Virus record (IMG/VR): IMGVR_UViG_3300048589_000566
Location: 1-40,073 of that record
Reading direction: 5' to 3' (one strand)
Length of the DNA: 40,073 bases
Origin: a virus
Below are positions 3,456 through 17,649 of this stretch, in pieces. Positions within the stretch are counted from its first letter, which is position 1, and the number at the start of each line of letters is the position of its first letter. The notes beneath the pieces are model-generated. The model was not told where the DNA came from. It did no database searches and saw nothing but the letters and a program-made list of their open reading frames with translations. The translations under genes and the position numbers were made by a program.

Positions 3456-4687
3456 GGCGTATTCCCGAGTTGGTCAATCGGAATGAGGTTGCTCTGCACG
3501 GTGTACGTGTCGCCGCCGTCAATCGGCGGCATGTTCTCTTTCGCCCGGACTTCGTTGCGGCTCATCCAGCCATTCTGCGTTGCGCTCGCGTACATCTCGC
3601 GGCGGGCGGCGCTGTCGCCGCGCAGCAGCGCATCGACGTTGAACTCGGCGTAGTAGCGCCCCTGCTCCGCCGGGGTCAGGAGCATCGTGTTGATCCCCTG
3701 CTCGATCCGAGTCAGCCACGGGCGCAACGTGAACTGGAGGAAGCCAATCTGTTGCTGTTCAATACCGGTACCCCAGCTCGTTGACTTCTCGGAGTGCCCG
3801 ACCATGAAGGGCGGCACCCGGAACCAGCGGCAAATCTCTTCCACGCCGAACGCCCGCGACTCGAGGAGCTGGGCATCTTTCGGGTCGATGCCAATGCGCA
3901 TCGAGTCCATGCCCGCCTCAAAGATCGCTGGCTTGCCGGAGTTGAGCGCGCCAGAGATCACGGCGATGGCCTCTCGCGCTTGCTCGCGCTGGTTGTCCTT
4001 GAGAAGTTGCGGGAACTTGAAAGCGGTGGTTGGCATGAGCCCGTTCTTGAACGTCGCGCTCGACGCCTGGTCAGCAGCGAGCGCCGCGCCAAACATATTG
4101 GCGCCGTAACAGATCACCGACACGCCGTTCACGCCATCGAGGGAAAACCCGGGGAGCGTGAACACGTCCGCCTTGGCGATCTCGCGCTGAGTCACGCGGC
4201 CGAAGGCGTCGACCTCCTTGTATAGGTAGACCTCGCGGTTGCCGCGAATCGTGAGCATCAGGTTACCCGGCACGAGGAACTTCAGCGCGACGAGACGGTC
4301 ACCGATGCGAAGTTTCTCAGCGCGACCCGCGCCGCGCAAGAGCATCGCGGCGATGGTCGATTCCCAGTGCACCGCGGCCGTCGTGTCAGCGTTCGGCTTC
4401 GAGTGGATGATACTGTAGAGCGGATGGGTCGTGGCCGGAACCCGCGACCCGTTCGGCCGCCGCTCATAGAGGTTGAGCGGGAGCGTGGCGATGGTTTCAG
4501 AGATCAAGCGCGTGCAGGCCCAGGTCGCCGAGAGGGAGAGCATGCTCTGTTCCGTCACGGTCGTACCAGCGCCAGAACTCGTGGCGCCCAGAGTGCCGAG
4601 GAAAACCGACTCAGGCACCGGGGCTCCGCCGAGCATCGTGATCAGCGCCGAGCGAATCTTGCCGGGGGTTTTGCGTTGTTCAGTCAT
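3452..4687 (-). CDS. Portal protein (HK97 family)
   Basis: A 411-residue portal subunit; twelve copies form the DNA-entry ring at one capsid vertex and dock the terminase. Recognisable family segments are SATWACTRLISETIATLPLN near the N-terminus, HPLYSIIHSKPN, and the C-terminal FRVPPFMVGHSEKSTSWGTG followed by a QQQIGFLQFTLRPWL helix. The ATG at 4687 overlaps the large terminase stop (ATGA). The frame stays open further upstream inside the terminase gene, but that region has no portal character. Length is typical for HK97-type portals. Confidence 0.92.
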   Translation of the reverse strand: MTEQRKTPGKIRSALITMLGGAPVPESVFLGTLGATSSGAGTTVTEQSMLSLSATWACTRLISETIATLPLNLYERRPNGSRVPATTHPLYSIIHSKPNADTTAAVHWESTIAAMLLRGAGRAEKLRIGDRLVALKFLVPGNLMLTIRGNREVYLYKEVDAFGRVTQREIAKADVFTLPGFSLDGVNGVSVICYGANMFGAALAADQASSATFKNGLMPTTAFKFPQLLKDNQREQAREAIAVISGALNSGKPAIFEAGMDSMRIGIDPKDAQLLESRAFGVEEICRWFRVPPFMVGHSEKSTSWGTGIEQQQIGFLQFTLRPWLTRIEQGINTMLLTPAEQGRYYAEFNVDALLRGDSAARREMYASATQNGWMSRNEVRAKENMPPIDGGDTYTVQSNLIPIDQLGNTP

Positions 4688-6261
4688 GCCGTCACCGGAT
4701 TGCGGAGGAAGCCCATCATCGCGGCACCCTCGTCGGTTGACTTGGACCAGGCGCCAATGGCCATTGTCAGTGCTACCATGCCGTCGATCCTGCCCGTGAC
4801 CTTTTGCTTGTCCAGCTTCCGGTTGCCAGCGGGGTCCTTCGAGACCGCGGCGTTCGCTGCACACATTGTCAGGACCGGGTGCATGCCGTGCGCGAGTCTA
4901 TTATTCAAAAGTAACTCCTCCACTTTGTCAAGCGCGGGACTCATGTCTTTGTAACCCTGACCAAACGGTTGCAACGGCAGAACCAGGTCGAGGCGGTCGC
5001 ACTCCTTCTTGAACACGTCGATGCGCCAGCGGTCGAAACCAATCACCTCGCAGTCACTCTCGGCGAGAATGTCGGCGAGTTGTTTCGCCACGTACTCATA
5101 GTCCACGGTCTTGCTAGGCGTCGTGAGCAACCAGCCGTCACGGACCCAGACATCGTAGGGTTGACGGTCGCGGTCGCTCCTCTCCCGCAGCCCGTACTCT
5201 GGGGTCCAGAAGTACGGCCAGACCTGGATCACGCCGCCGACCTCGGCGATGAATACCGCGGCGGTCAGGTCCGTGCGCGAGGAAAGGTCGAGGCCGCCAT
5301 ATACGGTCACGTTGCGCATGGGCAAGGGAGGTGGGGAGTTAGATTCCCAGACGCGCCGCGACACGAACGGCGAGAACACGGTCACACGCTGGTTGAGGTT
5401 TAGGTTCCTAAAAGTGTTCTCGAACGAAGGCATGCGTGCGGCCTTCTCCGCCTGCTTGCGCATATCCTCCAGCGAACGGAACTTGCCGAGAGCCGGGTTG
5501 CTAGCGCGCCATCCTTCCTCACTCAACAGCGGAGCGTCGGGCGGCGTTTCGTAAACGTGGCACACTGTCTTCGCCGGTTGATTGCGCCGGGCGTCGTCGA
5601 TCTGCACGCTGAAGAAGTCGGCATCGGTCGCGGACTGCGTGCTGATATAGATGAGCAGCGGTTTCTCATACGCGCCCTGCGCGGTCGTGATCGCGTCGAC
5701 AAAGTCACTCTGCGGGCCGCGAATCTGTCCGACCTCGTCGAGGATCGCCAGCACGGGGCTCTTACCGTGCGCGGTCGTTTTCTCCGCGCTGATCGCCTGG
5801 TACTCCACGTTCATCGGCAGGCCGACCAGGCGTTTGGTCGAGGGTATCTGCCGGATCAACGGCCGGAGTTTCGGCGAGAGGCGGGCGCACTTCGAGGCGA
5901 GATTGTAGACCTCCGCCGCCTGATCTCGCGACATCGCGCCACTGATGATGCGCGAGTTCAGCATCGCTTCCGGGCCGACCAGGTGCGCCAGCAGGATGAA
6001 AGCGATGGTTGCGGTCTTGGCGTTCTTGCGGGCGATGCTCAGGATCGCCGTGTCCGTCACGGCGGGGTTGTCGTAGATGGCGAGGATGAACAACCGCTGG
6101 AAGTCATCGAGCACGACCGGCGTGCCAACGAGCGTCCCCTCCGGGACCACGCAGTGGCTTTCGATGAACCGGATGACCCGCTCGCCGCGGGTGAGGTCAC
6201 GGGTCGGGATGCCGGTCAGGTCGCGCAGGAGCGGGCGAGGCCCGCAGGCGATGGGGTCCAT
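4684..6261 (-). CDS. terL: Terminase large subunit
   Basis: A 525-residue packaging motor of the HK97-like terminase family. The ATPase part shows a degenerate Walker A (SIARKNAKTA, about residues 75-84) and a Walker B ending in acidic residues (VLAILDEVGQI). The C-terminal RNase H-like nuclease part has GGLDLSSRTDLTA, a central FDRW and a closing IDGMVALTMAIGAW, where the acidic metal ligands are expected. It acts at the portal, cutting and pumping DNA into the prohead. I chose the ATG at 6261, which overlaps the small subunit stop as TGATG; an in-frame TTG lies one codon earlier. Confidence 0.93.
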   Translation of the reverse strand: MDPIACGPRPLLRDLTGIPTRDLTRGERVIRFIESHCVVPEGTLVGTPVVLDDFQRLFILAIYDNPAVTDTAILSIARKNAKTATIAFILLAHLVGPEAMLNSRIISGAMSRDQAAEVYNLASKCARLSPKLRPLIRQIPSTKRLVGLPMNVEYQAISAEKTTAHGKSPVLAILDEVGQIRGPQSDFVDAITTAQGAYEKPLLIYISTQSATDADFFSVQIDDARRNQPAKTVCHVYETPPDAPLLSEEGWRASNPALGKFRSLEDMRKQAEKAARMPSFENTFRNLNLNQRVTVFSPFVSRRVWESNSPPPLPMRNVTVYGGLDLSSRTDLTAAVFIAEVGGVIQVWPYFWTPEYGLRERSDRDRQPYDVWVRDGWLLTTPSKTVDYEYVAKQLADILAESDCEVIGFDRWRIDVFKKECDRLDLVLPLQPFGQGYKDMSPALDKVEELLLNNRLAHGMHPVLTMCAANAAVSKDPAGNRKLDKQKVTGRIDGMVALTMAIGAWSKSTDEGAAMMGFLRNPVTA

Positions 6262-6737
6262 CAATGCGCGGGCGCCCGGGGGATCAGGTCTTCGTCGGCG
6301 TGGTCAAGCAGTTGTCCCGCCTCGCGCTGCTTCTTCAGCCCCTTGCCTTGGTCACGGCTATCGCCGTTTTTCGCCAGCGCGTGAATCTGTAGCGTGCGTG
6401 ACAGCCCCACGATCCGGCGTGTTAGCGTCTCAATGACCGCGTGTTTCGGGTTGGCGATGGGCGTGCCCTTGTTGTTCCTGATCACGTGACCCTCACGGTC
6501 GAGTTCCTCCTGTAACTTCTCCACGTCGGCCATGCAGCGCGCCAGCGCGGCCGCCATCGCCAGGTCGTGATCGTCCCAGGTCTCACGCGCGCGGGAGAGG
6601 ACAATACCGTCCCAGAACGGACGGTCGCCCGGGCGGAGCGTGAGGTGGGCCGGGGGATCGAGCGGGCCGGCCGCGGCGGCCGCCATCGCCCGGGTTTCCC
6701 CTGTCACGGAGTCGCATCTCTGCCGTCTGTTTGTCAT
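6261..6737 (-). CDS. terS: Terminase small subunit
   Basis: A 158-residue protein immediately before the large terminase. After a disordered Ala/Pro-rich start it has a helical middle (DDHDLAMAAALARCMADVEKLQEEL), a conserved-looking VIRNNKGTPIANPKHAVIETL segment and a closing helix of the type seen in P27-like small terminases. These recognise the packaging site and load the large subunit. The ATG at 6737 has GAGG six bases upstream. The charged C-terminal tail (GKGLKKQREAG, then acidic) could contact the large subunit. Confidence 0.82.
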   Translation of the reverse strand: MTNRRQRCDSVTGETRAMAAAAAGPLDPPAHLTLRPGDRPFWDGIVLSRARETWDDHDLAMAAALARCMADVEKLQEELDREGHVIRNNKGTPIANPKHAVIETLTRRIVGLSRTLQIHALAKNGDSRDQGKGLKKQREAGQLLDHADEDLIPRAPAH

Positions 6738-6820
6738 TTGTGGCCTCGTTTTCTGGGTTACCGCATTAGTTAACCTGCGGGTGCGGGCTTCAAAACCCGG
6801 CGCCGAACTTCTGTCCCCCC

Positions 6821-7156
6821 CTACGGGGAAGGGTCGGGTGGTCCATGTTGGGGCGCCTCGGTGGCCCAGTGGTGCGAGGGGTCACAGGGGAAGCCCTGCG
6901 CATCCCCTCCGCGCAGACCCCGCCCGTGCTCCATCGCCTGTTTGGTCCCATCGTGACAGAGCTTACAAAGGGACTGTAGCGCACCGTAATGAAAGAGGTG
7001 AGGGTCGCCGCGGTGGGGGATCACGTGATCGGCGATGGTCGCGCTCACGATCCGACCACGAGCAAGACAGAAGCGGCAGAGCGGTTCGGCGGCGAGTTGC
7101 GCGGCGCGCCGTTTCTTCCACGTGGCGTTGTTGTAGAGGTGATGATGTTGACTCAT
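6821..7156 (-). CDS. HNH endonuclease, terminase-associated
   Basis: A 111-residue HNH nuclease. Zinc-knuckle cysteines are at 27 and 30 (CRFC) and 64 and 67 (CKLC), the first catalytic His is in ADHVIPH (residues 42-48), and the last metal-binding His is 68 (CHDG). Small HNH proteins next to the terminase are typical of cos-packaging phages, where they work with the large terminase to cut concatemers. The Pro/His-rich C-terminus is probably disordered. The ATG at 7156 overlaps the preceding small gene as ATGA. About 80 bases separate it from the small terminase gene and hold nothing that I recognise. Confidence 0.88.
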   Translation of the reverse strand: MSQHHHLYNNATWKKRRAAQLAAEPLCRFCLARGRIVSATIADHVIPHRGDPHLFHYGALQSLCKLCHDGTKQAMEHGRGLRGGDAQGFPCDPSHHWATEAPQHGPPDPSP

Positions 7157-7311
7157 CGCGGCGAACCGTCGAGGTAGCAGGTCTCGTCGTCTCCCGGCTC
7201 ATCGACGGGGAGGGCGTCAAGCAGGACTGCCAGGTGCTGGAGCATCGTGGTCAAGACCCGCGTGTTCTCCCGGATGGCTTCGAGCAACTCGACGTGCTGT
7301 TGATCGGTCAT
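7153..7311 (-). CDS. Small protein opening the late operon
   Basis: A 52-residue acidic protein: a hydrophobic helical core (HVELLEAIRENTRVLTTMLQ) followed by an acidic tail (DEPGDDE). I do not recognise a family. The start at 7311 is supported by GGAGG about 10 bases upstream (7322-7326), and its stop overlaps the HNH start (ATGA), so it is translationally coupled. It is the first gene after the 7.3-7.5 kb intergenic region and thus the first late gene. Confidence 0.65.
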   Translation of the reverse strand: MTDQQHVELLEAIRENTRVLTTMLQHLAVLLDALPVDEPGDDETCYLDGSPR

Positions 7312-7562
7312 GCTGTTTGATCCTCCGGGGGATATTCTATAGGGGATTTTGGGGAAGTTTTTTTCTGGGTGGTATCACCTCGTATACGGTGAACTAGGTT
7401 GACTGATATCCCGCTCGAACCCTTGCAATCTCTGGCTTTGATCTCTGACAGGTATCATCCGTCAAACCATCCTGATACCCTACTGATAATCGTCTAACGC
7501 ATTGATCATCATGCAGAATCATTCGCTCAGTATCAGTAAATCACCAAAAACCGGGATTTTTT
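7312..7562. promoter_or_regulatory. Early/late boundary intergenic region A
   Basis: This 251-base non-coding stretch is visibly richer in A and T than its surroundings and separates the end of the early unit from the first late gene. It holds one CTATAGGGG palindrome half (7335-7345); a second copy lies just outside, within the nuclease gene end (7589-7600). It has CTGATA at 7403, 7472 and 7483, TATCAG at 7531, and a GGTGAACTAG motif at 7388-7397 that also occurs in inverted orientation at 28481-28490. The minus-strand sequence TATAGAAT at 7335-7342 could act as a -10 box just ahead of the late RBS, but I see no good -35. A packaging site may also lie here. Confidence 0.6.
7335..7345. promoter_or_regulatory. 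CTATAGGGG element, copy 1 (late leader)
   Basis: The sequence TTCTATAGGGG lies 9 bases upstream of the late-operon RBS (7322-7326). It is an imperfect version of the CCCCTATAGGGG palindrome found at 7589 and 28314. On the coding strand it reads CCCCTATAGAAT, so it could be either an operator or part of a promoter. Confidence 0.5.
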
Positions 7563-8042
7563 CTACTCAGCGCGTGCCATCCCTTTTTCCCCTATAGGGG
7601 GCCACGAAACGAGCACGGCCGCCAGCAACTCCCACTCTTCGGCGCTGACCCGCGGTCCTCCACGCCACGCCGCGGTCGACTCGAGATCGCCCACGGTCAT
7701 GCCGTTGAACTCGCGGCACCATGATCCGTGCACCAGGTAGAGGCGCTGACCGACCTGGGCGAATATCCACGCACGACCGCCCAGCGCCACGTGCTCGGCG
7801 ATCCAGTCGATCTGTTCAGGGGAGAGGCCGTGCTGACTCTTGAACACGGCGGTCGTCTCGCGCTTGGGCGGCTGCCCCTGCTTGAACTCGACCCATCCCT
7901 CCGCGGCGACCGTCCCCGGAAGGGGCACGACAAACGAGCAGTCCGGCGTCCCCCGCTCTAGGGCGTTTTCCATCCGGCGGAACCGCCCCCTCCCCCGGAG
8001 GCCGTCCCGGAACCGGGTCCAGGTCCCTGACTCCTTCCCCAT
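7563..8042 (-). CDS. PD-(D/E)XK nuclease, VRR-NUC-like
   Basis: A 159-residue small nuclease. The expected active-site residues appear in order: Glu25 (RRMENAL), Asp34 in GTPD (31-34), and Glu52 with Lys54 in EFK. A Gln/Leu-rich LSPEQIDWI helix (73-81) and a strand pair (RAWIFAQVGQRLYLV) complete the core seen in VRR-NUC and related structure-specific nucleases. It could resolve branched replication or packaging intermediates. It is the last gene of the early unit. The start at 8042 has only a G-rich RBS (GGGGG, 3-base spacer). A perfect CCCCTATAGGGG palindrome lies inside its last codons. Confidence 0.72.
   Translation of the reverse strand: MGKESGTWTRFRDGLRGRGRFRRMENALERGTPDCSFVVPLPGTVAAEGWVEFKQGQPPKRETTAVFKSQHGLSPEQIDWIAEHVALGGRAWIFAQVGQRLYLVHGSWCREFNGMTVGDLESTAAWRGGPRVSAEEWELLAAVLVSWPPIGEKGMARAE
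7589..7600. promoter_or_regulatory. CCCCTATAGGGG palindrome, copy 2
   Basis: A perfect 12-base palindrome within the 3' end of the nuclease gene, at the right edge of region A. Together with the nearby GCCATCCCT (7576-7584) it matches copy 4 at 28537, where GCCATCCCT again lies 7-8 bases away on the same side. This shared layout suggests that the two intergenic regions are related. Confidence 0.5.
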
Positions 8043-12224: not shown

Positions 12225-13145
12225 TCAAAACCCCTCGAAGAGTTCATAGTCGCGCTTGATGAAGCGCGGGTCAGGGCGCTCCATCATACGCTCGTAATAG
12301 GTGACGTTCGCGTGGTCGCGCCATCCGTACATCGTGCGGAGTTTCTCGATGTCGTAGCCCAGCGCCTCCAGTCGCTCGCGCACGAGCCGCTGCGTCACGG
12401 GGTCGAGCGAGTCGTAGTGACTGCCCAGCACCTTGGCGCTCGGCGACTGATCACTAATGGCGATCTTCAGGTCACGGGTCGGCAGGTCCACGTTCACGAA
12501 CCCGTAGCGCCCGGCGAGAACCCACGAGGTCGAGTCGACCGAGTACCACGGGTAGCGCCGCATGAGTTCGATGGCGGTCAAGCCGAACCCGTGCACCTTG
12601 ATCTTCGCCGTGCCGTCCGGGTTCGTCAGGTAGCGGTCGAAGATACGGTCGAGCCAGCGTCGAAGATATGGAGCGGACTCAGGTACCATGCCGCCCAGAA
12701 AGATATAGTCATAGCCCTCACCAATGTATTTTTCCAGCCAGTAGTCGTCGTCGCGTGCGTGGTGCACGGGTTGAATCTTCGCGCCCATCCGCTCGAGCGC
12801 CTTCTGGTTGGCGTAACTCTCCTGTTCCTTGCCAGCGCCGATCTCGTCCAGGTTGGAAGCGACATGGATCACGTCGGCGTTGTCGATGATGTACTGCGCG
12901 TACTTCTTCAGGTCGACCTTGATCCCCTGCGTGAACATGGAGAACGCGCCGGAGTCAAGGAAGATCGTGCGCCCCTTCGACCGCAGGTAGTCGATCACGC
13001 GCTGGCTATCGCCAATGTAGTGATACGACTCGAGGTCGTAAGGGTACGCGGCGCGCAGTTCGTCCGATACCATGACGTTTTCGCTGGTCGACTCCTTGCC
13101 GAACGTGAAGCCCGTTTGCAGGATGCCCGCCAGGTAGATTTTCAC
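12225..13145 (-). CDS. dpdA: DNA 7-deazaguanine transglycosylase DpdA-like
   Basis: A 306-residue protein of the TGT-like TIM-barrel family used by phages to exchange guanine in DNA for a 7-deazaguanine base. Family signs are IFLDSGAFSMFTQG (61-74; the DSGAF resembles the DSGGF of tRNA-guanine transglycosylases), DVIHVASNLDEIG (91-103), YIFLGGMVP (147-154) and KVHGFGLTAIELM followed by YSVDSTSW (183-208). Asp64 and Asp204 are likely active-site residues by analogy. The zinc site of tRNA enzymes is not obvious, as in other DpdA proteins. The start is GTG at 13145, overlapping the folE-fusion stop as GTGA. It sits directly beside the precursor genes. Confidence 0.85.
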   Translation of the reverse strand: MKIYLAGILQTGFTFGKESTSENVMVSDELRAAYPYDLESYHYIGDSQRVIDYLRSKGRTIFLDSGAFSMFTQGIKVDLKKYAQYIIDNADVIHVASNLDEIGAGKEQESYANQKALERMGAKIQPVHHARDDDYWLEKYIGEGYDYIFLGGMVPESAPYLRRWLDRIFDRYLTNPDGTAKIKVHGFGLTAIELMRRYPWYSVDSTSWVLAGRYGFVNVDLPTRDLKIAISDQSPSAKVLGSHYDSLDPVTQRLVRERLEALGYDIEKLRTMYGWRDHANVTYYERMMERPDPRFIKRDYELFEGF

Positions 13146-14134
13146 GCCCGCTTCCTCGCGCTGGTCAGGTTCAGGAACTCCGCCCGGGCCGCGGCATCGT
13201 CGCGCAGCACGCCGCGCAGCGCAGACGTGACGGTCACGTGACCCTGTTGGCATACGCCACGCGACTCCATGCAGAGGTGACGGCATTCGAGGACCACGCC
13301 CACGCCCTTCGGTTTCAGGTGCTCGGCGAGAGCATCGGCCACCTGATTGGTCAACCGTTCCTGAACCTGGAGCCGCCGGGCGTAGATGTCGACCAGGCGC
13401 GAGAGTTTCGACAACCCGACGATCTTGCCATCCGGGATATACGCCACGTGCGCCACGCCGAAGATTGGCGCCAGGTGGTGTTCGCAATGCGAGTACAGCG
13501 GAATGTCGCGCACGAGCACCATCTCATCGACACGCTCGGCGCCATCCTCGAACACCTTGAGCACGGCGGCGGGGTCGCGGTCGTAACCCGAGGTCCAGAA
13601 CTTCCACGCCTTCAGCACGCGCTTCGGCGTCTCCTGCAAGCCGCCGCGGGTCGGGTCCTCGCCGACGAAGGAAAGCAGGCGGGTCACGATGTCGTCGGCG
13701 CTGGAGTCGTCGCCCGTCGTGCTCATCTCCCACGGGAACACGAGCCAGCCGGAGAGCACCTGGCCCACGTGCACGCCCAGGTCGGTCCAGTTCTCGATGC
13801 GACCATACAGCGCGCCGAAGAGCACGCCCCGCGCCGCGTGCTGGGCACGGAGTCGCTTCATCGTCTCGCCCGTCTCGACAATGTCGTCGATGATGATGTC
13901 GGCGGTATTGGCGGAGTCGGTCAGCATCACCGGGCGTCCGAGCAGGGAGAGGTTCAGCGCGACCAACGCCGCGGCGGGGACGCCGCCACGCGGTACGCCG
14001 TACAGGTACCAGGTCGCGCCGGGGTTCGCCGTGCCGAGTTCCTCCAGCGAAGCGATGGTCGAAGAGAGGCCGTGCGCCAGCGAGAGCGCAGCGTTGTTCA
14101 CGTCAGCCTGCGTGAGTACGATCTTGTCGGTCAT
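13142..14134 (-). CDS. folE: Phosphoribosyltransferase-GTP cyclohydrolase I fusion (PRTase-FolE)
   Basis: A 330-residue two-domain protein. Residues 1-135 look like a type I phosphoribosyltransferase: YGVPRGGVPAAAL (45-57), the PRPP-binding loop IIIDDIVETGETM (80-92) and GWLVFPWE (129-136). Residues 145-330 are a type IA GTP cyclohydrolase: zinc ligands Cys217 and His220 in CEHHLAPIFG and Cys288 in HLCMESRGV, with GLSKLSRLVDIYARRLQVQE between. FolE opens the GTP ring to give dihydroneopterin triphosphate, the first step to 7-deazaguanine. The PRTase half could salvage purine or recycle the guanine released by DpdA to GMP and hence GTP; that is inference. The ATG at 14134 is 1 base after the queD stop. 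Confidence 0.9.
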   Translation of the reverse strand: MTDKIVLTQADVNNAALSLAHGLSSTIASLEELGTANPGATWYLYGVPRGGVPAAALVALNLSLLGRPVMLTDSANTADIIIDDIVETGETMKRLRAQHAARGVLFGALYGRIENWTDLGVHVGQVLSGWLVFPWEMSTTGDDSSADDIVTRLLSFVGEDPTRGGLQETPKRVLKAWKFWTSGYDRDPAAVLKVFEDGAERVDEMVLVRDIPLYSHCEHHLAPIFGVAHVAYIPDGKIVGLSKLSRLVDIYARRLQVQERLTNQVADALAEHLKPKGVGVVLECRHLCMESRGVCQQGHVTVTSALRGVLRDDAAARAEFLNLTSARKRA

Positions 14135-14135
14135 G

Positions 14136-14573
14136 TCAGCGGTTCTCGATGGTGGCGGTAGCGGAGCACTTCGCGGTCTCTTCGATCCTGACTTCGACCA
14201 GGCGGGCGCCCGTGCCCTTCAGTTGATGGGGGCCGATCACGTTCAGCAGGTACTCGGCCATGTTCTCGGCGGTCGGGTTAAACGGAACTTCGACCACGCC
14301 TTCCGGGTCGAGGTGCACGAGCGTCGTGCGCATCGGGTCCTGATTCCAGACAAGGAACTTGTGATCCCATTCCTGCTCCAGCCACTCGCAGAGCAGGGTC
14401 TTGATCACCGAGAAGTCGAGCACGCGCCCGATGGCATCGAGCGACGGCGCAAGGATCGCGAAGTGCACGCGGTAGTTGTGACCGTGGAGATGCGCGCACT
14501 TCGACTCGTGGTTGTGGACGCGATGCCCGGTGCAGATGTCGTGGTAACGCGATGCGGTGATAGTCATGCTCAT
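14136..14573 (-). CDS. queD: 6-carboxy-tetrahydropterin synthase QueD
   Basis: A 145-residue QueD/PTPS homologue that converts dihydroneopterin triphosphate into 6-carboxy-5,6,7,8-tetrahydropterin. The catalytic Cys and zinc His cluster are present in SKCAHLHGHNYRV, with a further His in the SRYHDICTGHRV segment. PTAENMAEYL and VRIEET match the substrate-binding C-terminus. A DFSVIKTLL segment follows the usual GRVLD. I chose ATG 14573, which overlaps the upstream stop (ATGA); ATG 14567 is an alternative. It is the second enzyme of the deazaguanine route, next to folE. Confidence 0.93.
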   Translation of the reverse strand: MSMTITASRYHDICTGHRVHNHESKCAHLHGHNYRVHFAILAPSLDAIGRVLDFSVIKTLLCEWLEQEWDHKFLVWNQDPMRTTLVHLDPEGVVEVPFNPTAENMAEYLLNVIGPHQLKGTGARLVEVRIEETAKCSATATIENR

Positions 14574-14749
14574 GGCGCGGGCTCCCAAAGTCCAGTGGCG
14601 GTGTAACTCCCGCGCTGCCCCTTCAGCACGATGTTCAGCGTGCCGGTGCCATTCGAGAGATAGACGGTCGTGCCGGAGAGCGGGCCGCCCTTCAGCACGA
14701 CCTTGTGTTCCGCGCAGTCACGCGGTCCCTTGTTAACCTTCTTAGTCAT
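14570..14749 (-). CDS. Hypothetical 59-residue protein in the deazaguanine cluster
   Basis: A 59-residue basic protein with a GGPLSG turn in the middle and a beta-rich second half (TTVYLSNGTGTLNIVLK). I do not recognise a family with certainty; small phage proteins carrying a K-GGP-x-G turn exist without known function. It overlaps the upstream gene by 8 bases (ATGACTAA) and queD by ATGA, so it is coupled to pathway genes. Cluster location is the only functional hint. Confidence 0.6.
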   Translation of the reverse strand: MTKKVNKGPRDCAEHKVVLKGGPLSGTTVYLSNGTGTLNIVLKGQRGSYTATGLWEPAP

Positions 14750-15064: not shown

Positions 15065-15835
15065 TCAGGGGTTGGTCGTGAGTTTCAAGCGCGCCGAGTC
15101 GTAGTTCGGCGTTTCCGGCAGAGGCATCAGTCCTTCCTGATGCGCTCGCAGGATCAGGGGATCAGGCAGGCCCGCCTCGGCAAAACCTTTCGCCCGCAGC
15201 AGCGTGGCGTGGTCGTTGCCGAGCGGCGGGTACTGTCCATCGTATGCGGTATGCGTGAACGCCAGAGCGTTCCAGCACTCGGCGCCCAGGTCGTAGGCGA
15301 GACGGACGGTCGCCGCCTTCGACAGGTGCATCAGCGGGGTCTGGATACGGAACTGCGCGAACTCGTCGTGCAGGTCGTAGGCGAACCCGAGACCGATGGC
15401 CTGCTCGATGGCATCCACGAACTCGCGTCGGCAGTCAGGGTAGCCGCCGTAGTCTTCCTCGCAGACGCCCGACACGATGGTCGTGCAGCCGAGCGCGTAG
15501 GCGCGGTTGGCGGCGATCACGAAGAACAGCGCGTTGCGTCCGGGGACAAAGGTCTTTTCGAGACCGCCCGGCAGCGAGTACATGTCGGGATACTGCTCGA
15601 GCGTCGCGGCGCTCACGAGCGGGGACGAACCGACCAGCGGCTTGCCCAGGTCGATGAGCTCGTGACTCGCCACGCCGGCGAGTTCGCCCACGATCCGCGC
15701 CGCCTCGAGTTCACGCGCATGGCGCTGACCATAGTTGAACGTGACCGCGTGAACCTCGTCGTACTTCTGCTTGGCCCAGAACAGGCAGGTCGTTGAATCC
15801 TGCCCGCCCGAGAGAACAACCAGCGCCTTCTTCAT
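15065..15835 (-). CDS. queC: QueC-like ATPase lacking zinc-binding cysteines
   Basis: A 256-residue homologue of 7-cyano-7-deazaguanine synthase, which uses ATP to turn carboxy-deazaguanine into the amide and then the nitrile preQ0. The ATP loop (LSGGQDSTTCL), NYGQRHARE, FVPGRNALFF and GVCEEDYGGYPDCR are all present. The C-terminal zinc site is not: the usual Cys positions (TCY.G...CG.C..C.LRA) read TAYDGQYPPLGNDHATLLRA, so the four ligands are Ala, Leu, Asp and Thr. The fold and flanking residues are kept, so this is not a frameshift. I prefer ATG 15835, with GGAG 7 bases upstream, to ATG 15850, which overlaps the preceding stop. Confidence 0.88.
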   Translation of the reverse strand: MKKALVVLSGGQDSTTCLFWAKQKYDEVHAVTFNYGQRHARELEAARIVGELAGVASHELIDLGKPLVGSSPLVSAATLEQYPDMYSLPGGLEKTFVPGRNALFFVIAANRAYALGCTTIVSGVCEEDYGGYPDCRREFVDAIEQAIGLGFAYDLHDEFAQFRIQTPLMHLSKAATVRLAYDLGAECWNALAFTHTAYDGQYPPLGNDHATLLRAKGFAEAGLPDPLILRAHQEGLMPLPETPNYDSARLKLTTNP

Positions 15836-15846
15836 CGCATCGCTCC

Positions 15847-16137
15847 TCATGGATAGTCGCGGCCGCCGAATGCGGCCGCCTCGTCAATGTCGTAGTCATC
15901 CGGCGGATCGAAGTCGTCGCCGGCATCGGGTTCATCATCGACCGTGTCGTTGTCGCCGCACGCCGGGCACGCCCAGCCGAGCACGTCCTCCAGCGGTTCG
16001 GCTTCGCTCTGGTCGAAGTGGTGACCGCATTGCACGCAACGCATCGGCACGCCCTCGCGGGGCTCCGGCGGTTCGGCGTTGTCGTAGGCGGCCTGCGCCG
16101 CGGCCATCGCCCTGGCGTTCTTGTCGTCGATGCTCAT
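15847..16137 (-). CDS. Zinc-ribbon protein, acidic
   Basis: A 96-residue protein with two CxxC knuckles (CVQCGHHFD near residues 34-42 and CPACGDN near 56-62), the pattern of a zinc ribbon, followed by a strongly acidic tail (DEPDAGDDFDPPDDYDIDE). Such small proteins often bind protein or nucleic acid. It is immediately upstream of queC and overlaps it by ATGA if the earlier queC start is used. Its own start at 16137 is coupled to the small membrane gene (ATGA). A role as a zinc-bearing partner of the cysteine-less QueC is a speculation worth testing. Confidence 0.7.
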   Translation of the reverse strand: MSIDDKNARAMAAAQAAYDNAEPPEPREGVPMRCVQCGHHFDQSEAEPLEDVLGWACPACGDNDTVDDEPDAGDDFDPPDDYDIDEAAAFGGRDYP

Positions 16138-16274: not shown

Positions 16275-16533
16275 CGCGGTTCTCCTTTCCGTTGAGCGCC
16301 CGCCGTAGTGACGACAGGCCGCCGTTGACGAAGACCACCCGCTCTCGCGGCAGGTGGTCGCCATGCTTGTGACTCATGAACTTGGTCATTACATAACGCC
16401 GCTCGACGTGCTCGACTGCGGCGCCCAGAGAAGCGGGGCCGTCGTCGTCCGGGTGCAGGAAGCGCGCTCGGATGCCCCACGACTCCACGATGCGCTGCTG
16501 CTTCGGTAGCAAGCCAACGATGGCGATGGTCAT
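16267..16533 (-). CDS. DUF2325-like small protein
   Basis: An 88-residue protein with a Rossmann-like start (MTIAIVGLLPKQQ), a central MSHKHGD segment and a closing VFVNGGLSSLRRAL. This order (nucleotide-fold strand, SH-K motif, terminal GxSSL helix) resembles DUF2325 proteins, whose function is not established. The ATG at 16533 overlaps the queE stop (ATGA), and the end overlaps the small membrane protein gene. It belongs to the deazaguanine operon by position. Confidence 0.6.
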   Translation of the reverse strand: MTIAIVGLLPKQQRIVESWGIRARFLHPDDDGPASLGAAVEHVERRYVMTKFMSHKHGDHLPRERVVFVNGGLSSLRRALNGKENRDA

Positions 16534-17240
16534 GGCAGCCCCGCAATCTTATGCACCTGCACCGTGAGCCGGTAGTCGTAGGCGATCACGCGCTCGACTG
16601 CCTCGGCCAGGTTGCGCTGGTTCTTCTCCGGGTCGTGCTCGTCGCACGGTTGCATCCATACCGTGCTCGACAGATGCTCTGGCCGCGCCAGTTTCAACGG
16701 GCGACCATCGCTGCTCTGGGTCCGGGTGATCGGGATGCCGTCGGCGATATCGAACTGGTCGGCGTGCCGGACAATGTACTTCCAATGACGGCACTGCTCC
16801 TGAATCAGCGGGTGAACCTTGCCAGTCTTGGGCGAACAGACGATGGTCAGGAAGTCGCGCTCCATCGCATCGCGCCACCATGACTCCTGCATGGCGGGGA
16901 TCGCCACGGTGCCCGCGGTCTCGATCTGTACGTCATGATCGCGGTCGAGCAGCAGGGCGATGAATGGTCCGATGTTCTGCAGCAGGGGCTCGCCGCCCGT
17001 GATCACGACCAGACGACGCTCGCAGAGGTCGGTCAGGTCGTCGCTCCGGGAGAGGCGGCGCCCGCTCTCGAAGTCCGTGTCGCAGAACGTGCACGCCAGG
17101 TTGCAGCCCGACAGGCGCACGAAGGTCGCGGTCTTGCCCGCCAGCGGGCCTTCGCCCTGCACGGTATGGAAGACCTCTTGCACGAAGAGCGACTGCCCGT
17201 CGCCCAGGTCTTGCTTACGCAATGGATTGTTGCCGAACAC
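16530..17240 (-). CDS. queE: 7-carboxy-7-deazaguanine synthase QueE (radical SAM)
   Basis: A 236-residue radical SAM enzyme that contracts 6-carboxy-tetrahydropterin to 7-carboxy-7-deazaguanine. The iron-sulfur cysteines are in GCNLACTFCDTDF, a CxxxCxxC motif. EVFHTVQGEGPLAG at the N-terminus, VVITGGEPLLQ (SAM binding) and a late SSTVWMQPCDEHD are family features. The start is GTG at 17240, with GAGG 6 bases upstream. It overlaps the DUF6884-like gene by 26 bases, so the two are translated together. Confidence 0.94.
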   Translation of the reverse strand: MFGNNPLRKQDLGDGQSLFVQEVFHTVQGEGPLAGKTATFVRLSGCNLACTFCDTDFESGRRLSRSDDLTDLCERRLVVITGGEPLLQNIGPFIALLLDRDHDVQIETAGTVAIPAMQESWWRDAMERDFLTIVCSPKTGKVHPLIQEQCRHWKYIVRHADQFDIADGIPITRTQSSDGRPLKLARPEHLSSTVWMQPCDEHDPEKNQRNLAEAVERVIAYDYRLTVQVHKIAGLP

Positions 17241-17649
17241 GTGCCACCTCGTTTGTCAGGAACTGAAGTTGCCGCCCGATGGGGAGGCCCGCCATCGGCG
17301 CTTCCCCCGGCGGGAGATCGCGCCTATAAACCGCCCCAGCGAGATATACCAGGCGATCCCCTACCTCTGCCGGCCACGCCTCCAGCACGCGCCGTGCCCA
17401 GGTTTTCCGCTGTTGGCGCGTGGCGCCGACCAGCGACTCATTGTAGTCGAGGATCAGGTCAGTCGACCGGAGCACGCCGTGCTTGGCCGACAGGATGAAG
17501 ATGTCGCGATCATCCACGCCCACGACTTCGCGGGCGTAGGTCAGCGAGAGTTGGAACAGGGTGCTCGTGTATCGGTTGACCGCGGGCATCGGGATCGGGT
17601 TGTGATCCTTCCCAGCGCAACAGGCGATCATGACCAGCGTGCGTGCCAT
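17215..17649 (-). CDS. DUF6884/YaaA-like protein
   Basis: A 144-residue protein with the opening VMIACCAGKDHNPIPM, a central DIFILSAKHGVLR, YNESLVGATRQQRKTWA, and the closing VYLAGAVYRRDLP plus a QLQFL helix. This is the DUF6884-type layout (Cys/Lys loop, SAKHGL segment, LAG.Y). Such domains occur beside nucleic-acid modification genes, but I cannot state a reaction. It overlaps queE by 26 bases and begins the deazaguanine block, so a role in base handling or DNA recognition is a reasonable inference. Confidence 0.72.
   Translation of the reverse strand: MARTLVMIACCAGKDHNPIPMPAVNRYTSTLFQLSLTYAREVVGVDDRDIFILSAKHGVLRSTDLILDYNESLVGATRQQRKTWARRVLEAWPAEVGDRLVYLAGAVYRRDLPPGEAPMAGLPIGRQLQFLTNEVARVRQQSIA

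Follow-up and report, generated by a model that had tools for sequence, protein, structure and literature searches.

The window analyzed in this work, i.e., the whole stretch of 40,073 nucleotides of the IMG/VR virus record IMGVR_UViG_3300048589_000566, harbors a cluster of genes for DpdA, FolE, QueD, QueC and QueE, along with those for a DNA polymerase A and a processivity factor (Table 1). The gene order of this cluster is shared with Stenotrophomonas phage Bhz54 and others. Neither QueF nor a glutamine amidotransferase was found among the window proteins scanned. The N-terminal region of FolE (ca. 140 residues) contains a PRPP-loop-like motif (IIIDDIVETGET) and matches PHROG 8995, phosphoribosyl transferase (3.5e-6), and, weakly, Pfam PF00156; FolE of Bhz54 and that of phage MMDA13 are likewise preceded by an N-terminal region of this kind, with a weak match to PF00156. 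Speculatively, this region might salvage the guanine freed by DpdA.

Table 1. Genes of the cluster and sequence elements of its QueC protein, in window coordinates
Feature	Coordinates	Strand	Remarks
DpdA-like DNA transglycosylase	12225..13172 (start approximate)	-	PHROG 887 queuine tRNA-ribosyltransferase, 185 bits
FolE (GTP cyclohydrolase I, residues 149-323) with N-terminal phosphoribosyltransferase-like region	13142..14134	-	
QueD (6-carboxytetrahydropterin synthase)	14136..14588	-	PF01242
Cys-less QueC-family gene	15065..15835	-	256 aa, starts MKKALVV
QueC: conserved C-terminal tail, residues 224-245, PDPLILRAHQEGLMPLPETPNY	15101..15166	-	phage-type alignment
QueC: former zinc-knuckle segment, residues 195-218, HTAYDGQYPPLGNDHATLLRAKGF	15182..15253	-	sequence alignment
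QueC: former zinc ligands A197; L205; D208; T211	15245-15247; 15221-15223; 15212-15214; 15203-15205	-	
QueC: YPDC substrate motif, residues 132-135	15431..15442	-	Y132 = E. coli Y131
QueC: SGGQDS ATP/pyrophosphate loop, residues 9-14	15794..15811	-	Ser-Gly-Gly-x-Asp-Ser invariant
Small zinc-ribbon-like ORF, CxxC...CxxC, next to queC	15847..16137	-	96 aa
QueE-like radical SAM protein (7-carboxy-7-deazaguanine synthase)	16530..17240	-	assigned from gene position and from homology with QueE proteins of related phages
DUF6884 protein, adjoins queE	17215-17649	-	

The product of the queC gene, for which an in-frame ATG at 15850 offers an alternative start five residues upstream, is recognized by TIGR00364 (178.2 bits, above the cut-off of 150.3), by PF06508 (188.9 bits, cut-off 22; domain at residues 3-221) and by PHROG 1550 (208 bits), and its residues 1-220 align to the solved QueC structures 2pg3 and 3bl5. 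Judging by the motif definitions in a recent survey of the family (YxQxHxxE, VPxRN and YPDC; PMC13329287), the catalytic core of the protein is intact: YGQRHARE is complete (Y35, Q37, H39 and E42), and VPGRN (residues 97-101) and YPDC are unaltered. Together with the SGGQDS loop these motifs bear out the first-pass annotation, made from the window sequence, which had described the ATP loop and GRN as conserved. According to the same survey, mutation of Y35, R99, Y131 or Y189 kills E. coli QueC in vivo (PMC13329287). The corresponding residues Y35, R100, Y132 and Y198 are invariant among 67 aligned proteins, both those with all four zinc-binding cysteines (Cys4) and the Cys-less ones, and Y198 is kept inside the former zinc-knuckle segment.

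Loss of the zinc ligands in a phage-type clade

The segment HTAYDGQYPPLGNDHATLLRA of the window protein aligns without gaps with HTCY.G..PPCG.C..C.LRA of related Cys4 bacterial QueC, which means that the cysteines C1 to C4 have been substituted in place, by A197, L205, D208 and T211, respectively. This is exactly the replacement by Ala, Leu, Asp and Thr that had been read from the sequence at first pass. In solved QueC structures it is the C-terminal knuckle that contains the four cysteines. The C(x)8CxxCxxC zinc motif of canonical QueC is absent, and as this motif is a hallmark, the window protein was not filed as a canonical QueC; it very likely works like one.

A tblastn search with the window protein against 50,697 phage records returned 320 matching records, 43 of which, at least 49% identical to the query, form a block above two Vibrio phages. 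All four cysteines are absent from each of the ten sequences read within this block (Pan1, R26L, Bhz54, MeZS1, ART, ZHS, MMDA13, HD01, Iggy and RHEph05), and are retained in GR7B, one of the two Vibrio phages below it. Scanning of IMG/VR with the clade alignment gave 80 loci, 78 of them Cys-less, one (L091) with all four cysteines and one (L087) with a mixed site. The resulting comparison set of phage-type Cys-less sequences (n = 91, window included) is diverse, its members being ca. 50-66% identical to the window QueC, and viral except for two sequences from cellular genome assemblies (L095 and L136). Thus the alignment proposed in the first-pass annotation for finding a Cys-less clade does reveal one, almost wholly viral, and the single odd phage enzyme supposed there belongs to a widespread group. 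Since all 91 phage-type relatives are devoid of all four cysteines, their loss in the window is neither chance nor a sequencing error.

Each former ligand position shows its own pattern of replacement. C1 is occupied by Ser, Ala or Gly, C2 is variable (Thr, Val, Ile, Leu and others), and in all 91 sequences only Asp or Asn is found at C3 and only Thr, Ser or Asn at C4, the two positions covarying as D-T (57), N-N (25), D-S (7) and D-N (2). The clade is further marked by an invariant SPL, by an insertion at residues 79-92 with a conserved LEQY segment, and by the C-terminal tail, which beyond residue ca. 231 is mostly missing from Cys4 QueC and whose D225, P226, R230, P240 and Y245 are present in 91 of 91 sequences. 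Such strict conservation of the catalytic residues together with new invariant ones indicates strong purifying selection on the phage-type QueC. It also bears on the proposal that the enzyme is decaying and inactive, preQ0 being supplied by the host, whose own QueC could mask the lost activity; with an intact ORF, catalytic residues strictly conserved over 91 diverse sequences and new clade-specific invariant residues, this proposal appears extremely improbable.

The first-pass annotation had also suggested dependence on a partner, and the zinc-ribbon-like ORF, which stops 12 bases short of the queC start, with a weak match to PF09723 (E 6e-4, below the cut-off), could be thought to provide the missing zinc module in trans. 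Its distribution does not support this suggestion: a CxxC-CxxC ORF occurs within 1 kb in only 2 of the 89 Cys-less viral loci, and no match to the window ORF was found among the 50,697 phage records, so that we regard such a partner as highly unlikely.

Several individual loci deserve a separate mention. In the mixed site of the viral L087 QueC (6986-7822) the first two cysteines are kept along with an extra one (HTCYDGCYPPCPNNHAS), and the last two are already Asn and Ser; on sequence grounds it is possibly an intermediate in zinc loss. Vibrio phage GR7B (L012) has two adjacent annotated QueC genes (5989-6795 and 6875-7579), the product of one being Cys4 and sharing the characteristic insert of the Cys-less clade, that of the other being divergent and devoid of YPDC. 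A phage-type Cys-less QueC frame (STNN) lies near 3911-4768 of a Microvirga lotononidis plasmid record (L229) and perhaps represents a prophage.

A second Cys-less group and the fold without zinc

Genome scanning revealed that QueC proteins of Rhodothermia, Adhaeribacter and a Planctomycetaceae MAG carry HTDYNG...WGYG[RKQ]LDNPAS, a motif with no cysteine ligand, in which C1 has become Asp, C3 Asn and C4 Ser. It was found in all 11 strong matches among 60 genomes of the class containing Rhodothermus. Each of the nine Rhodothermia genomes searched (completeness not stated) encodes one full-length QueC, which is Cys-less, with QueF within ca. 1.2 kb of its gene; QueA was detected in each of those among the nine that were searched for it, and in a Rhodothermus MAG (G003). 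In Adhaeribacter (L125) a DUF6884 protein adjoins the Cys-less queC, followed by NurA- and HerA-like genes.

In the tree built without the zinc columns, the Rhodothermia-type sequences group with Cys4 Bacteroidota-type QueC, separated from the phage clade by a starred branch. Forcing all Cys-less proteins into one group lowered the log-likelihood by 38.6 with an AU p value of 0.076, i.e., a single origin is not formally rejected, and forcing the phage-type proteins together had no cost (p 0.57). Considering the tree placement and the different sequence backgrounds, the cysteine site was probably lost twice, independently in the phage-type and the Rhodothermia-type proteins.

Helix capping classically employs Asp or Asn as the N-cap and Thr, Ser or Asn at N3, with Pro at N1 being compatible. 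AlphaFold models of the window QueC (AF2, pLDDT 95.1) and of the Rhodothermus QueC (pLDDT 94.2) both have a helix that starts directly after the former C3 (residues 209-221 and 219-233, respectively), although AlphaFold tends to copy homologous folds and Cys4 sequences were present in both alignments, so that this high confidence is no proof of metal-free stability. In both models the former C3 is the N-cap and the former C4 is N3 of this helix, and the Rhodothermia group has Pro at N1. Judging by these models, a capping box seems to have taken the place of the knuckle's second half, at the same location in both Cys-less groups. In the window QueC, Asp208 (N-cap) and Thr211 (N3) would stand in for the CxxC pair, the small residues now found at C1 would help to replace the knuckle, and in the phage enzymes the conserved C-terminal tail may contribute as well. 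The idea of another fold-stabilizing solution, put forward at first pass, has thus gained support from the [Asp/Asn]xx[Thr/Ser/Asn] pattern in two Cys-less groups and its N-cap/N3 placement in both models.

A metal might instead still be bound through new ligands, e.g., H195, D199, D208 and H209, as the phage-type Cys-less sequences all (91 of 91) have H195 and H209, and 98% of them have D199. However, the Rhodothermia-type sequences have H195 too, as do 63% of the PPC-type Cys4 proteins, and H209 pre-exists between C3 and C4 in several Cys4 relatives (CHSC, CHAC; L091, L096, L097 and GR7B); because both histidines already occur in Cys4 proteins, they were not gained as cysteine replacements. 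Moreover, the Rhodothermia group has Pro where the phage-type proteins have H209. A relocated metal site is therefore unlikely. With the site lost in nearly 100 related viral enzymes and, separately, in a group of ordinary bacteria, zinc in QueC is probably a replaceable scaffolding outside the chemistry.

Product of the Cys-less enzymes

We consider it likely that the window enzyme is a working zinc-free preQ0 synthase of the QueC type, in which a capping box and a tail replace the structural zinc. In the proposed pathway the phage FolE, QueD and QueE would make 7-carboxy-7-deazaguanine. The Cys-less QueC would turn it first into the amide and then into preQ0, at the cost of two ATP, and DpdA would exchange preQ0 into the phage DNA. 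The zinc-free state, capping as the replacement and preQ0 as the product of the window QueC are what we infer from the comparisons described. FolE, QueD, QueE and QueC together with a DpdA-like gene were found in 65 of the 89 Cys-less viral loci. Since neither QueF nor an amidotransferase was seen in the window, dPreQ0 is expected in the DNA of this phage.

QueF-family enzymes act on the preQ0 nitrile, and therefore QueF beside a Cys-less QueC argues for preQ0 as the product of the latter. Such enzymes are encoded in 22 of the 89 Cys-less viral loci (QueF in 17, QueF-like in 5). The 17 viral QueF carry the catalytic CP[KLM]TGQPD, and the eight of them tested score 98-111 bits (cut-off 27); of the QueF-like proteins (MMDA13 type), the two tested gave no Pfam match, the QueF-like gene of MMDA13 being an HHpred assignment by the authors who described that phage. 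Reports on phage DNA are consistent with preQ0 as well. For the Iggy lineage, whose QueC is Cys-less, dPreQ0 was reported in 2023, as far as the title of that paper and the papers citing it tell (Olsen, 2023; PMC11008142, PMC11945000), and 100% dADG was reported for Campylobacter phages CP220 and CPt10 (PMC8306585), whose QueC retain all four cysteines (C-C-C-C). With dPreQ0 beside a Cys-less QueC and dADG beside Cys4 enzymes, product and zinc site are evidently unlinked. Meanwhile, phage hosts, that of Iggy included, usually own a QueC, so that dPreQ0 in virions and QueF in the operon are no strict proof that the phage QueC makes preQ0, and in the bacterial groups preQ0 salvage is possible, which is a caveat to the argument from Rhodothermia.

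The reading favored in the first-pass annotation was that the second half-reaction had been lost with the zinc site, the enzyme stopping at 7-amido-7-deazaguanine and the virion carrying dADG. The amide is indeed a QueC intermediate, dADG is known from phage DNA (PMC8306585, PMC6884629), the window has no QueF, and the Adhaeribacter genome with queC beside the DUF6884 and NurA/HerA genes gave no QueF match. Against this, the phages with 100% dADG encode Cys4 QueC (PMC8306585), Iggy with its reported dPreQ0 has a Cys-less one, 22 viral loci and 9 of 9 Rhodothermia genomes combine a Cys-less QueC with QueF (or, in some of the loci, a QueF-like enzyme), and the catalytic residues are unaltered. 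An arrest at the amide is thus improbable for the window enzyme. There is likewise a small chance that in QueF-less phages the Cys-less QueC releases another end product (the amide) or passes its product directly to DpdA, yielding a base other than dPreQ0.

The QueC proteins of CPt10 (L223, 3001-3660) and CP220 (L230, 2501-3160), in which the zinc cysteines are kept, have FPDC in place of YPDC and YGSNH in place of YGQRH. It may be these changes, rather than the loss of zinc, that mark a QueC stopping at the amide.

Significance and comparison with known QueC-type systems

In the text examined, the 2026 survey of the QueC family treats QueC as a zinc-binding enzyme, counts the zinc motif among the hallmarks, and nowhere mentions a subgroup that is Cys-less but complete in its catalytic motifs (PMC13329287). 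A text search, with incomplete coverage of the literature, found no other report of Cys-less QueC, nor was any remark on the missing zinc site found in the papers on these phages, one of which labels the QueC of MMDA13 'canonical'. Natural Cys-less versions exist in phages and as the sole full-length QueC in Rhodothermus, and two Cys-less groups with one helix-capping replacement would make the role of zinc directly testable. Loss of the cysteines should not be read as loss of preQ0 synthesis, and which of dPreQ0 and dADG a phage carries in its DNA is a matter separate from the zinc site.

The closest counterparts of the window protein are the QueC of Iggy, Pan1, R26L, Bhz54, MeZS1, ART, ZHS, MMDA13, HD01 and RHEph05, which belong to its clade, with the same cysteine loss and replacement motif at 51-63% identity over the alignment; the operons of Pan1 and R26L additionally contain QueF and that of MMDA13 a QueF-like gene, whereas the window has no QueF. 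The Rhodothermia and Adhaeribacter proteins are likewise Cys-less with [D/N]xx[T/S/N] at C3/C4, but on another background (WGYG[RKQ]LDNPAS), without the phage tail and, in Rhodothermia, with QueF adjoining. With canonical QueC (PF06508 cluster 1/TIGR00364; E. coli, B. subtilis 3bl5, Erwinia carotovora 2pg3) the window protein shares the ATP loop, YxQxHxxE, VPxRN, YPDC and the Y189-equivalent Tyr, as well as the fold (top PDB matches) and the QueD, QueE and FolE neighborhood; it differs in that all four zinc cysteines are missing and in possessing an insertion at residues ca. 79-92 as well as the conserved C-terminal tail.

The QueC fold and ATP chemistry also unite the window protein with Cap9 of type IV CBASS and with QatC, which, unlike it, have a Cys zinc site, a defense role and a protein substrate. 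As the catalytic core of QueC is preserved in Cap9 and the Cap9 structure 9nto ranks fourth among the best structural matches, the window protein might be considered a ligase of this kind, attaching deazaguanine to protein and no longer synthesizing the base. We find this exceedingly unlikely: Cap9 and QatC retain their Cys zinc sites, QatC is devoid of YPDC, and the window gene sits among queE, queD, folE and dpdA, no CD-NTase, QatA or QatD gene being recognized among the window proteins searched. Neither the Cap9 hallmark CE(x)6CxxCxxCxD nor a neighboring CD-NTase was found for the window protein, and in contrast to QatC, with its C(x)19CGxCxxRR, absent YPDC and qatABD neighbors, it has YPDC and no such neighbors recognized. 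Gat-QueC is distinguished by a fused glutamine amidotransferase domain, whereas in the 256-residue window protein the QueC domain (residues 3-221) is the only one. As a whole, the cluster corresponds to the phage preQ0-DNA pathway (second group of Hutinet, 2019), which consists of FolE, QueD, QueE and QueC homologs with DpdA and no amidotransferase, the same set as in the window.
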